This document shows, piece after piece, positions 18,394 through 20,924 of a DNA stretch of 64,000 nucleotides. Each line of letters begins with the position of its first letter. The stretch's first letter is position 1. Made by a program: the position numbers and the translations under genes. The stretch comes from Streptomyces fragilis (lineage in GTDB: Bacteria; Actinomycetota; Actinomycetes; Streptomycetales; Streptomycetaceae), in assembly GCF_003112515.1 (NCBI RefSeq), contig NZ_BEVZ01000001.1:1-64000 (forward strand), read 5' to 3'. Below the pieces are notes generated by a model. It was not told the origin of the DNA. It saw nothing but the letters and a program-made list of their open reading frames with translations, and made no database searches.

Positions 18394-18657
18394 TCAGACG
18401 GCGGCCTTCTTGAGCCTGCGGCGCTCCCGCTCGGAGAGCCCGCCCCAGATCCCGAAGCGCTCGTCGTTGGCGAGCGCGTACTCCAGGCACTCGGAGCGCA
18501 CCTCGCAGGCGAGACAGACCTTCTTGGCCTCCCGCGTGGAGCCGCCCTTCTCCGGGAAGAAGGACTCGGGGTCGGTCTGGGCGCACAGCGCGCGCTCCTG
18601 CCAGCCGAGCTCCTCGTTCGCGTCGTCGACCAGCAGTTGCTGCACCAGCTCGGTCAT
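18394..18657 (-). CDS. whiB: WhiB sporulation regulator, iron-sulfur Wbl protein
   Basis: An 87-residue Wbl protein. Four cysteines at 25, 48, 51 and 57 (C...CxxC...C) bind a [4Fe-4S] cluster; GIWGG at 69-73 and a basic C-terminus (RERRRLKKAAV) contact sigma factor and DNA. From memory this sequence is almost identical to WhiB of Streptomyces coelicolor, which with WhiA controls the switch from aerial growth to septation. Its position beside DUF3499 and upstream of fbiA is conserved (whiB2 in Mycobacterium). A single convincing start at 18657. A promoter is visible upstream. Confidence 0.96.
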   Translation of the reverse strand: MTELVQQLLVDDANEELGWQERALCAQTDPESFFPEKGGSTREAKKVCLACEVRSECLEYALANDERFGIWGGLSERERRRLKKAAV

Positions 18658-18733
18658 GCTGCGCCCCTCGTCTGTCTTTCCGCGTCCCCGTGATGTCCCC
18701 GTGTGATTCGGCCGTTACTGACTGTGGCCGAAC

Positions 18734-18775
18734 GACACGAGTGAAATTACAAGTGTGCCGCTCCGGGCGAGTCAA
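18734..18775 (-). promoter_or_regulatory. whiB: candidate whiB promoter with GACAC (WhiA-type) site
   Basis: On the minus strand TTGACT (18770-18775) and TGTAAT (18746-18751) are separated by 18 bp, a vegetative-type promoter about 90 bp upstream of whiB. GACAC, the core recognised by WhiA, is at 18734-18738 near the predicted start point. The region 18776-19050 is relatively AT-rich and I see no gene in it. Confidence 0.55.
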
Positions 18776-19054
18776 GCCAGGATCTGCTATTGAGCCCCTT
18801 ATTCACCCTGCGGAACCAAGGACCCGTCGAAAGTGTTCAAATCATCCTGAACTTCCACGGGCTGACGTTGGCTCAGCAGACGCCCCCTGCGAGCTCGATC
18901 ACAGCTGGATCAGGGCTCGCCGGGAGGCGATCGGCACCGACAGGTTTGACGCGACCGGTTGTGCGCCATGTGTCCCGGCCACACACGGCACAAACCTTCC
19001 TTCTTTCAAGACGACCCCAGAAGGTGAAGTTCGTCCCATTCGCGCGTGGCCAGG

Positions 19055-19083
19055 TTGACACCCGAGGTGTGAGCCGCTGTGCT
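19055..19083 (+). promoter_or_regulatory. consensus promoter of the cysteine leader peptide
   Basis: TTGACA (19055-19060), 17-bp spacer, then TGTGCT (19078-19083). The -10 ends 7 nt before the ATG at 19091, so the transcript is predicted to begin at the start codon. The match to the -35 consensus is unusually good for this genome. Confidence 0.65.
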
Positions 19084-19090
19084 GTGGGGC

Positions 19091-19198
19091 ATGTTCGCGA
19101 ACTCGGCATCCGCCCCGTCGCGCACCGCCACGCACGTGCCGGTCGCGGTCCTCGGTGCTGCCCTCGTTCGCCGCTGTTGTCGCCGCACCGGCTGTTGA
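19091..19198 (+). CDS. predicted cysteine-responsive leader peptide, 35 aa
   Basis: A 35-codon frame reading MFANSASAPS... and ending RRCCRRTGC. Three of its last seven codons are cysteine, and all three are TGT, the codon that high-GC Streptomyces genes avoid in favour of TGC. It appears to be leaderless and stands 193 bp upstream of a cysteine dioxygenase-like gene, with a strong hairpin 22 bp beyond its stop. This layout resembles the leaderless poly-cysteine reading frames that attenuate sulfur genes in mycobacteria. The peptide is probably not the product of interest; ribosome stalling at the TGT codons would be. The assignment is inferred. Confidence 0.55.
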   Translation: MFANSASAPSRTATHVPVAVLGAALVRRCCRRTGC

Positions 19199-19220
19199 GC
19201 CTCTGACGCTCCGGCCGTAG

Positions 19221-19244
19221 CCCGCCCGACGATCCCCGGGCGGG
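19221..19244 (+). promoter_or_regulatory. leader hairpin between the Cys peptide and cysteine dioxygenase
   Basis: A perfect 8-bp stem, CCCGCCCG (19221-19228) with CGGGCGGG (19237-19244), loop of 8 nt, located 22 nt after the peptide stop. It lacks a U-tract, so it may act by structure or by Rho rather than as a classical intrinsic terminator. A second small hairpin (TCACGG/CCGTGA) is near 19311-19323. Confidence 0.55.
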
Positions 19245-19391
19245 TACGCGCACCCCTTCCGGGACGCCTCGTCCCCACCGCCTTCCGCGGCCCGCACCCG
19301 GGCCCAGCCGTCACGGTCCGTGATCCGGACCCCGGCGCAGGCGGCGCCCCGCACCCCCACCGCCCTCCTCGCCCCAGGAACCAGCGCACCC

Positions 19392-19901
19392 ATGAACAGC
19401 GACAGCGACCTGCAGATCGCCGGCGACATCCTCGAGGTCCTCCACCTGCTCCGGCCGCAGCCCGAACACCCCTCCACCGTCGCCGACTTCGTCGGTCTCT
19501 CCCGGACGGTCGCCGCGGACCGCGGCCGGTGGGAGCACCTGGTGCGCTACGACACCACCACCCGTTGGTACCACCGCCTGCGCACCGGGCCGGGGTACGA
19601 GGTGTGGCTGCTGTCCTGGCTGCCCGGCCAGGGCACCGGTCTGCACGACCACGGCGCCTCCTCCGGCGTGCTCACCGTCCTGGACGGCTCCCTCACCGAG
19701 CACGGCGCCGCCGGCGGGCGCTCCGGGCCCGCCCGCCGCGTGCTGGGGACCGGCGCCCAGCGGGTCTTCGCCCCGGGGTACGTCCACGAGATCGTCAACG
19801 ACTCCCTGGAACCGGCGGTCAGCCTGCACGTCTACTTCCCGGGCCTGACCGAGATGCCCATGCACACGCCCGCGCGCACCGGCGCCCGCGCGGCCCTCTG
19901 A
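19392..19901 (+). CDS. cysteine dioxygenase-type cupin protein
   Basis: A 169-residue mononuclear-iron cupin. The iron motif LHDHGASSGVLTVLDG (about residues 84-100) supplies two histidines and the later FAPGYVHEIVND supplies the third; the pattern is that of bacterial cysteine dioxygenase, which oxidises cysteine to cysteine sulfinate. The ATG at 19392 has an AGGAA site; the frame is open to 19320 without conserved sequence. The upstream Cys leader peptide supports a role in thiol metabolism. Substrate could also be a related thiol. Confidence 0.85.
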   Translation: MNSDSDLQIAGDILEVLHLLRPQPEHPSTVADFVGLSRTVAADRGRWEHLVRYDTTTRWYHRLRTGPGYEVWLLSWLPGQGTGLHDHGASSGVLTVLDGSLTEHGAAGGRSGPARRVLGTGAQRVFAPGYVHEIVNDSLEPAVSLHVYFPGLTEMPMHTPARTGARAAL

Positions 19902-19964
19902 CGCGCCGCCGCACGCCCGTGGCCGCCTGCCGGTCGCCGGGGCACGCCTGCGAGACTGGGGCCC

Positions 19965-20924
19965 ATGCGCATTGTGGTTCTGGCAGGCGGCATCGGCGGT
20001 GCCCGGTTCCTGCGTGGTCTGAAGGCGGCGGCGCCCGAGGCGGACGTCACCGTGATCGGCAACACCGGGGACGACATCCACCTCTTCGGGCTGAAGGTCT
20101 GCCCGGACCTCGACACGGTGATGTACACCCTGGGCGGCGGCATCAACGAGGAGCAGGGCTGGGGAAGGACCGACGAGACCTTCCACGTCAAGGAGGAACT
20201 CAACGCCTACGGCGTGGGCCCCGACTGGTTCGGGCTCGGTGACCGCGACTTCGCCACGCACATCGTCCGCACCCAGATGCTGGAGGCCGGCTACCCGCTG
20301 AGCGCGGTCACCGAGGCGCTGTGCGACCGGTGGAAGCCCGGCGTGCGGCTGATCCCGATGTCCGACGACCGGGTGGAGACCCATGTCGCGGTGACGGTGG
20401 ACGGCGAGCGGCGTGCGGTGCACTTCCAGGAGTACTGGGTGCGGTTGCGGGCCTCGGTCCCGGCGGAGGCGATCGTGCCGGTCGGCGCGGAGCAGTCCAA
20501 GCCCGCGCCCGGCGTGCTCGAGGCGATCGCCGGGGCCGACGTGATCCTCTTCCCGCCGTCCAACCCGGTCGTCTCGGTCGGCACCATCCTCGCCGTGCCC
20601 GGGATCCGCGAGGCGGTCGCCGAGGCCGGGGTGCCGGTGGTGGGGCTCTCCCCCATCGTCGGCGGCGCCCCCGTGCGCGGGATGGCCGACAAGGTGCTGG
20701 CGGCGGTGGGCGTGGAGGCCACGGCCGCGGCGGTCGCCGAGCACTACGGCTCGGGGCTGCTGGACGGCTGGCTGGTCGACACCGTCGACGCCGGCGCGGT
20801 GGAGCGGGTGGAGGCGGCGGGCATCCGCTGCCGGGCCGTGCCGCTGATGATGACGGACCTGGACGCCACCGCGGCGATGGCCCGCGAGGCGCTGGCGCTC
20901 GCCGAGGAGGTGCGGGAGGCGTGA
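19965..20924 (+). CDS. fbiA: 2-phospho-L-lactate (PEP) transferase of coenzyme F420 synthesis
   Basis: A 319-residue CofD/FbiA protein that joins the lactyl- or PEP-derived guanylyl intermediate to the deazaflavin Fo, giving (dehydro-)F420-0. Motifs: [16 protein letters not shown] at the start, [31 protein letters not shown] and GMADKVL. It overlaps fbiB by 4 nt (GTGA), so the two are coupled. A weak -10-like GAGACT lies 7 nt before the ATG and no ribosome binding site is evident, so the transcript may be leaderless. Confidence 0.97.

Follow-up and report, generated by a model that had tools for sequence, protein, structure and literature searches.

The association of a short, Cys-ended reading frame with the gene for cysteine dioxygenase (CDO), first noted in the window (the whole 64,000-nt stretch of Streptomyces fragilis DNA analyzed here), is confirmed as real and exceeds chance; chance is ruled out because the leader is conserved in orthologous loci. 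Judged from its sequence, the leader together with the CDO gene is a conserved, functional-looking element of the family that holds Streptomyces. We propose, with a probability of about 0.6, that the frame encodes a cysteine-sensing leaderless leader peptide that acts in cis on CDO, and that stalling of ribosomes on the frame at low Cys-tRNA would open the CDO start.

In the window, the putative leader peptide (MFANSASAPSRTATHVPVAVLGAALVRRCCRRTGC; 19091..19198, plus strand) comprises 35 codons followed by TGA (19196-19198), and relatives share the order of the genes around it. The frame reads as the earlier note had described it, with its ATG at 19091, the ending RRCCRRTGC, and TGT for all three Cys codons, the proposed sensing codons (19175-19177, 19178-19180, and 19193-19195, plus strand). 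The proposed controlled gene (19392..19901, plus strand, 169 aa) has its ATG at 19392, at the claimed distance of 193 nt past the leader stop, and its identity as cysteine dioxygenase is borne out by Pfam CDO_I (E = 6.1e-19), which supplies the cysteine-metabolism gene expected downstream of a polycysteine attenuator; solved CDOs match the protein with E values down to 2.6e-12. A candidate ribosome-binding site of CDO, AGGAA, lies at 19376..19380 (plus strand), and a GAGGAA-like site occupies the same place in many of the relatives that we compared by eye. The divergent neighbor is whiB (18394..18657, minus strand; Pfam Whib) and the downstream neighbor is cofD (19965..20924, plus strand; TIGR01819 over cut-off); minus-strand whiB upstream of CDO and cofD downstream of CDO are each found in 80 of the 80 best relatives. 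No Rfam family reached its gathering score within 18700-19960, where the best match was sub-threshold (E 0.89, minus strand), and a plasmid search gave no match.

Support for the promoter comes from conservation, not from consensus, because its −10 element is poor and a strict scan was negative. The proposed promoter (19055..19083, plus strand) consists of TTGACA as −35 element (19055-19060), 17 nt, and the −10-like TGTGCT (19078-19083), with 7 nt more to the ATG at 19091. The earlier note had called this a consensus promoter; the TTGACA and the 17-nt spacing stand, but TGTGCT agrees with TATAAT at 3 of 6 positions and a strict sigma-70 consensus scan of 18650-20000 found 0 promoters. Across 249 leader loci, the distance from TTGACA to the start of the frame is 36 nt in 170, 37 nt in 77, and 35 nt in 2, a spacing that is partly preselected, since an exact TTGACA 33-39 nt before the start was the entry condition for these loci. 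The leaderless geometry proposed earlier is thus found, with 36 or 37 nt, in 247 of 249 loci, and the range of 35-37 nt over all 249 would fit a leaderless short ORF that opens the transcript, as in polycysteine attenuators. From the promoter spacing we infer that transcription starts at the leader ATG or no more than a few nt away from it.

Conservation of the upstream region among orthologues, the check proposed in the earlier note, shows that both the frame and its Cys tail are kept. In a first set of loci, the 80 best Streptomyces relatives found with the CDO protein, a Cys-ended frame with its stop 74-198 nt before CDO, always TGA, is present in 80 of 80, as in the window. For further loci we used a leader rule that called for two things: a frame of 12-60 codons, starting with ATG or GTG and carrying 2 or more Cys codons near its end, and an exact TTGACA located 33-39 nt ahead of that start. 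In an evenly drawn second Streptomyces set the rule is satisfied by 110 of 114 loci (misses: L213, L227, L233, and L234), and in other genera of the same family by 44 of 48 loci, where one of the misses, L246, has merely 27 nt of upstream sequence, too short to judge. Odd-looking leaders were still counted as present (L145, L231, and L232, all within the 110, and L261). The CDO gene itself was found in 120 of 121 Streptomyces genomes; the CDO matches left out were those of G010, G050, and G119, which are partial genes, and those of G090 and G113. A TTGACA in L233 and in L146, a further Streptomyces locus, and a TTGACG in L234 lie near the beginning of CDO on its upstream side, but a search for a Cys frame came up empty in all three, and the CDO starts of these three loci differ (MDNDN in L233, MDNDN in L234, and MNNDN in L146). 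The leader-bearing total of 249 loci is the sum of the 80 best relatives, 168 loci of the second collection, and the window, with species that may recur across collections; 223 of the 249 remain when loci that share both leader tail and CDO start are counted once.

Outside the family, the leader rule is satisfied by 1 of 32 CDO-like loci, L283, the leader of which (MAEVQQQRGLVVRRHVDLMRLCSAACRLALA) resembles the annotated sulfur type (NF042934-like) and stands, with an exact TTGACA, ahead of a CDO-type gene. When gene positions were rechecked with tblastn, no exact-TTGACA case was found among the 28 of these 32 loci that could be placed; the other four, including L283, gave no tblastn hit, with about 130 nt of the gene covered, and L154 and L281 have little upstream sequence. 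Among 15 loci from other families of the same taxonomic order, one is a good candidate (L337, with a Cys leader, MYQRADRLHHVKLRRVASALCCCLCCRPSL, and an exact TTGACA before a CDO-type gene), one is weaker (L349, 5/6), and 13, one of which (L342) has only 251 nt of upstream sequence, have none.

The usual Streptomyces leaders end in RCSCCCCSSC or RCCCSSC, and the main forms resemble MLANLALTSTRTAGSHGAARARCSCCCCSSC and MPATSAPSATHARGFRRAVQDRCCCCCSSC; leaders of other genera take forms such as MSEQRAHSESLVTELRRAASALCCRCS or end in RRAASALCCRC, and both length and N-terminus vary among groups. The run of Cys codons is pronounced in the main group, defined as the 137 distinct loci in which CDO begins MNSD[SN]D, with a mean of 5.3 Cys in the last 16 codons. 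The tails are changed in the window, where RRCCRRTGC contains CC plus the final C, three Cys in all, and in L002 (S. abyssomicinicus, the best-matching named CDO), where the tail is CCQPCCRRTGC. VESD-type loci such as L164 and L195 keep the Cys run despite a changed CDO start, and in these the leader may act otherwise.

The choice of Cys codon within the leaders is strongly biased. The earlier statement that genes of such composition avoid TGT agrees with the counts: TGT accounts for 26 of 290 Cys codons (9%) in 68 coding-like ORFs from 12 x 20 kb of the genome, and for 11 of 92 in 26 coding-like ORFs of the window, so that three TGT in three leader Cys codons have a probability of about 0.0007-0.0017 against this background. 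Over 81 frames (the 80 best relatives and the window) the Cys codons are TGT 353 times and TGC 90 times, TGT encodes the last leader Cys in 204 of the 223 distinct CDO leaders, and it still makes up 53% of Cys codons in the VESD group, for which no pairing with the CDO start is predicted. The same holds for the leaders described by NF042934, a protein model, so that codons are not selected by the search. Every Cys at the last position of the model is encoded by TGT (38 of 38 and 30 of 30 loci, 68 of 68 in all), and earlier Cys codons within the model are TGC in 37 of 38; the loci scored (L325-L335, L352-L381, and L419-L448) were the best-scoring matches, many of them near-identical, and left out were L360 and L364, which contig ends cut, and L333 and L336, in which the match ends before the last Cys. 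In ten different NF042934-type leaders of this genome the sensing Cys is TGT in 10 of 10. A scan of seven pattern hits revealed a tRNA-Cys (anticodon GCA) in one of them. We infer that the sensing Cys codon is held at its wobble-read UGU form, and offer as a rule that the sensing codon is UGU, there being no UGC at that position in the 68 leaders scored. Base pairing was considered as a general reason for TGT in sulfur leaders and rejected: the third base of the sensing TGT is not consistently paired, being unpaired in 44%, paired with A in 38%, and paired with G in 17% of 52 distinct loci.

In full folds of the relatives, the Cys tract of the leader base-pairs with the start of CDO. Within the main group, the best unbroken helix between tract and start has a mean length of 12.8 bp and reaches 14 bp in 62 of the 137 loci. 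Among the 117 loci in which TGT and TGC could be arranged otherwise, no alternative surpasses the actual arrangement in 95, and the share of better alternatives averages 8%; in 90 of 137 loci no recoding would improve on the observed helix. Shuffles of codon order give p <= 0.05 in only 63 of 137 loci, with a mean z of 1.7. All of these helix statistics are to be read with the facts that the best register was chosen, that the CDO start hardly varies, and that the species are related. Other measures are weaker: the dinucleotide-shuffle z for a wider-window duplex is modest (mean −1.2; +0.69 in the window), the signal is absent in the VESD group and in the window, and, when partners were swapped between groups, a locus's own combination of Cys tract and CDO start was not favored. 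CDO codons 2-6 show nearly no synonymous variation in 81 loci, but the constraint is not specific to the paired codons, because codons 8-12 vary as little. In the window itself the complementarity is weak, amounting to 9 bp between 19172..19180 (plus strand) on the leader side and 19399-19407, and has no predicted effect.

To assess how the position of a ribosome on the leader would affect the CDO start, we computed by folding the cost of freeing 33 nt around that start, in 121 of the 223 distinct loci. The mean opening cost is 16.3 kcal/mol for bare RNA, 11.7 kcal/mol with a ribosome at the first Cys codon, and 13.6 kcal/mol with a ribosome at the stop codon, whereas control masks placed elsewhere give 16.4 and 16.0 kcal/mol. 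The stalled state is cheaper than the bare state by more than 1 kcal/mol in 87 of 121 loci and dearer by more than 1 in 3 of 121. When the ribosome was slid codon by codon along 28 main-group loci, the cost, starting from 16.9, dropped to 10.2-11.8 over the stretch 1-9 codons ahead of the stop; it was 13.6 at the stop, 12.3-13.9 at 10-11 codons, and 16.5 by 12 codons. The opening effect is thus seen only with the A site 0-11 codons ahead of the stop, and most strongly at 1-9; the main-group Cys codons sit 1 and 4-9 codons before the stop. The MNSDV group (10 loci) behaves as the main group does, and the remaining class, 42 of the 61 members of which belong to other genera, shows a weak drop (16.6 to about 13; 14 loci profiled). 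No clear effect of the ribosome was predicted by slide folding in the VESD group (8 profiled of 10 distinct loci), in the window, or in L002. A start-hiding structure opened by a ribosome on Cys codons, as in polycysteine attenuators, is accordingly predicted in the main group and not in these three.

The predicted gain in the main group depends on codon identity. In 40 of the 137 loci, recoding of all Cys codons to TGC reduces the gain from 6.5 to 0.3, recoding of all to TGT leaves 6.2, exchange of TGT and TGC leaves 1.4, and, on the other side of the helix, recoding of Ser AGC to TCC in CDO cuts the gain to 0.4. The folding model predicts, therefore, that TGT-to-TGC recoding would remove the lock in the main group. 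Use of a rare codon is not the sole reading of the TGT bias, because main-group TGT is also needed for pairing with the CDO start. Part of the predicted effect is composition, because almost half of the gain survives when the tail codons are put in random order (3.0 of 6.5, with 26 of 40 loci still above 2). The window behaves differently: its bare opening cost, 8.7 kcal/mol, is the fourth lowest of 121, so that the start is already rather open, and the cost with a ribosome is 9.1-9.3 at the CC codons, 11.0 at the last Cys codon, and 12.1 at the stop. The window leader is, in our models, a divergent, partly eroded member of the family for which the detailed lock is not predicted, and control in this species may be weak or may act through the stop-codon hairpin described below.

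According to the mechanism that we propose, transcription would begin at the leader ATG, as the promoter spacing suggests, and a shortage of Cys-tRNA would slow a ribosome on the short frame at its cluster of Cys codons. In most Streptomyces, as predicted by folding, the free Cys tract would pair with the first CDO codons, AUGAACAGCGACAGC, and close the CDO start, and a ribosome halted on the tract would keep the start open. If stalling opens the CDO start, CDO would therefore be ON at low Cys-tRNA: more CDO would be made when charged Cys-tRNA is low, alongside sulfur-acquisition genes with related Cys leaders. A hairpin over the leader stop (P1), together with a second hairpin (P2), would probably keep the space between tract and start compact; in the window species the leader, P1, and P2 would persist, with the Cys run and the pairing eroded. 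The earlier proposal that stalling at low Cys-tRNA controls thiol catabolism holds in part: the conserved Cys-rich tail, TGT as last Cys codon in 204 of 223 CDO leaders, and the 68 of 68 sulfur leaders speak for it, but the predicted sign is induction at low cysteine and the window copy, with 3 Cys codons and 9 bp, has no predicted lock. More tentatively, the Cys codons may do double duty, the sensing codon being fixed as UGU and the UGU/UGC run of the CDO leader serving as an antisense lock, with induction of CDO at low Cys-tRNA.

The sign of this control deserves separate consideration. It is physiologically odd that low cysteine should induce an enzyme that destroys cysteine; simple catabolic logic predicts the reverse. 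On the opposite account, ribosomes that pass or terminate at high cysteine keep the tract open and an abundance of cysteine turns CDO on, as befits a catabolic enzyme; a ribosome at the stop codon does cheapen opening (13.6 vs. 16.3 kcal/mol). In addition, growth on feather medium, which can hardly be considered poor in cysteine, raised cdo1 50-fold in Streptomyces SCUT-3 (PMC7181669), and this counts against CDO being ON at low cysteine. We nevertheless consider the opposite sign doubtful. A stalled ribosome lowers the mean opening cost further than a terminating one does (11.7 vs. 13.6 kcal/mol), and related Cys leaders precede sulfur-acquisition genes. NF042934 has 8 matches over cut-off in this genome, and the genes behind nine such leaders, some below cut-off, are by Pfam a sulfatase, an NMT1-like substrate-binding protein, TauD, a PALP enzyme (cysteine synthase type), a nitrite/sulfite reductase, a luciferase-like monooxygenase, a rhodanese, a sodium:dicarboxylate symporter, and an acyl-CoA dehydrogenase. 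Most of these fit sulfur gain and are expected to be ON at low cysteine; the symporter and the acyl-CoA dehydrogenase are not sulfur genes by Pfam alone. Further, in S. coelicolor under H2O2, SCO3035 is up 6.54-fold together with SCO6094-6102, SCO4164, and SCO2910 (Table 1 of PMC4991794), that is, it rises with cysteine-synthesis genes; these are transcript levels, and the authors credit HbpS-SenS-SenR (PMC4991794). Since whiB of S. coelicolor is SCO3034 (PMC4255298), SCO3035 is very likely the CDO gene, from gene order and numbering alone. Induction at low Cys-tRNA remains the sign that we favor.

Two hairpins follow the Cys codons of the window. The first, P1, which the earlier note had overlooked, lies across the last Cys codon and the stop (19189..19217, plus strand) and has ten pairs, formed by 19189-19194 and 19197-19200 with 19208-19217 around a bulge at 19195-19196; its strand CAGCUG-UU-GAGC pairs with GCUCCAGCUG, perfectly in the window. 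In an alignment of 63 rows (the window and 62 of the 80 best relatives), reduced to 61 distinct rows by dropping repeats, 92.1% of 610 cells are paired, vs. 21-42% for slid versions. Cells changed on both sides number 12, compared with 3.6 in shuffles (0 of 500 as high), and one pair exchanges A-U for G-C in 11 rows, a change that also turns Ser into Gly. The support from compensation comes mostly from one pair, because the number of pairs with two-sided change (2) is not above shuffles (156 of 500). A cruder test finds at least 6 bp spanning the leader stop in 204 of 230 loci vs. 133-148 in five shuffles. In L034, L066, and L067 the loop of P1 contains an extra self-complementary GCGC, which lengthens the hairpin. 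The second hairpin, P2 (plus strand), had been described as a perfect 8-bp hairpin beginning 22 nt after the leader stop, and is present as such: 19221-19228 (CCCGCCCG) pairs with 19237-19244 (CGGGCGGG) across a loop of 8 nt, with no U tract.

These hairpins invite the alternative of cysteine-responsive transcription attenuation, in which the position of the leader ribosome would pick between P1/P2 and alternative hairpins, with intrinsic or Rho termination. The compensatory change in P1 among relatives fits this alternative, as does the presence of the stop codon within P1, a hairpin that a ribosome at the stop would therefore disrupt; moreover, the states predicted for the window differ according to whether the ribosome sits at the stop or at the CC codons. 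Nevertheless, a scan of 18650-20000 found 0 terminator-like sites, and with them no hairpin and U tract of the trp type, and P2 is followed by TACGCGCAC. By that scan P2, which lacks a U tract, is not an intrinsic terminator, although terminators in Streptomyces can lack U tracts. On balance, we regard attenuation as unlikely.

A further alternative reverses the relation between codon and RNA: the Cys run would be a by-product of an RNA that acts as an antisense lock on the CDO start, and translation of the frame would be irrelevant. The complement of AACAGCGACAGC does encode UGU/UGC. The codons facing each other in the helix are TGT/ACA 252 times, TGC/GCG 114, CGC/GCG 62, TGT/GCG 33, and TGT/ACG 20 (since codons were counted inside the unbroken helix only, TGC facing ACA is impossible and its absence carries no weight), so that an Arg codon, CGC, stands opposite GCG 62 times, and the N-terminus of the leader shows no third-position excess, which speaks against our main proposal as well. 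Against the by-product account, groups with no predicted pairing (VESD) still keep the Cys run, and a Cys end is common to the leaders of unrelated sulfur genes, which makes the by-product account quite improbable. That the frame encodes a small functional protein would explain why it is kept in the leader loci counted but has very little to recommend it, since searches of Pfam and NCBIfam matched no model to the window peptide, length and N-terminus differ among groups, and third positions vary no more than first positions do across 105 MLAN-type leaders (0.097 vs. 0.165). CDO codons 8-12 (19413-19427 in the window, and their orthologues) are nearly invariant at synonymous sites, beyond the paired part.

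Polycysteine leaderless short ORFs of mycobacteria were reportedly treated by Canestrari et al. in 2020. In these mycobacterial frames, stalled ribosomes block an RNA that hides the start of the next gene. The CDO leader is like them in having a putatively leaderless first frame, clustered Cys codons, and a cysteine-metabolism gene behind (PMC9031893, PMC9094748, PMC4633059). It is unlike them in that it belongs to Streptomyces and its target is a cysteine-degrading enzyme, no CDO being named in the passages drawn on from PMC9031893, PMC9094748, and PMC4633059; in that its own Cys tract would hide the start; in that its Cys codons are mostly TGT; and in that a hairpin lies over its stop. Leader peptides of S. 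lividans (Table 4 of PMC8079986) are likewise leaderless and stand before amino-acid genes, and the metL peptide also has several Cys; among the eight leaders of that list, none is before CDO and none is called cysteine-dependent. In the open-access literature that we searched, we recognized no report of a cysteine leader before CDO in Streptomyces. We conclude that the CDO leader would work like the mycobacterial polycysteine attenuators, and that the CDO target and the antisense use of the codons appear, to us, to be new. If the proposal is true, codon choice serves as both sensor and RNA lock, and a cysteine-destroying enzyme joins a family-wide set of ribosome-gauged sulfur genes, with the paradox of why cysteine dioxygenase should be made at low cysteine.

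The closest annotated relatives are the leaders of NF042934 (cis_reg_atten 'putative leader peptide', RxHVDLxRxxSAxC), which is found over cut-off in 41 of 41 Streptomyces sampled, and which likewise describes short peptides with Cys near the end. The Streptomyces CDO leader is unlike these in having a Cys run, not one sensing Cys, and a different N-terminus; at the cut-off of 27 bits, the window peptide and three other Streptomyces CDO leaders gave no match. TTGACA-spaced starts are not general in NF042934 leaders, 6/6 agreement being found in 7 of 53 with starts as located here. The CDO leaders of other genera (RRAASALCCRC) resemble NF042934 leaders, as does the CDO-like L283 outside the family, which hints at a common origin of NF042934 leaders and the CDO leaders of other genera; the scores of four other-genus CDO leaders were 14.5 bits for one and no match for three, and the leader of one CDO paralogue scored 20.9 bits. 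In the genomes G018, G036, and G037, a distant second CDO-type gene has no leader among the matches listed. In at least 14 Streptomyces genomes, compared by eye, an NF042934 leader lies 117-295 nt upstream of the matched stretch of this second gene, on the same strand (G002 C235, G004 C2, G013 C1, G015 C1, G021 C22, G029 C20, G030 C22, G035 C10, G056 C19, G067 C1, G087 C15, G095 C7, G107 C1, and G169 C14).
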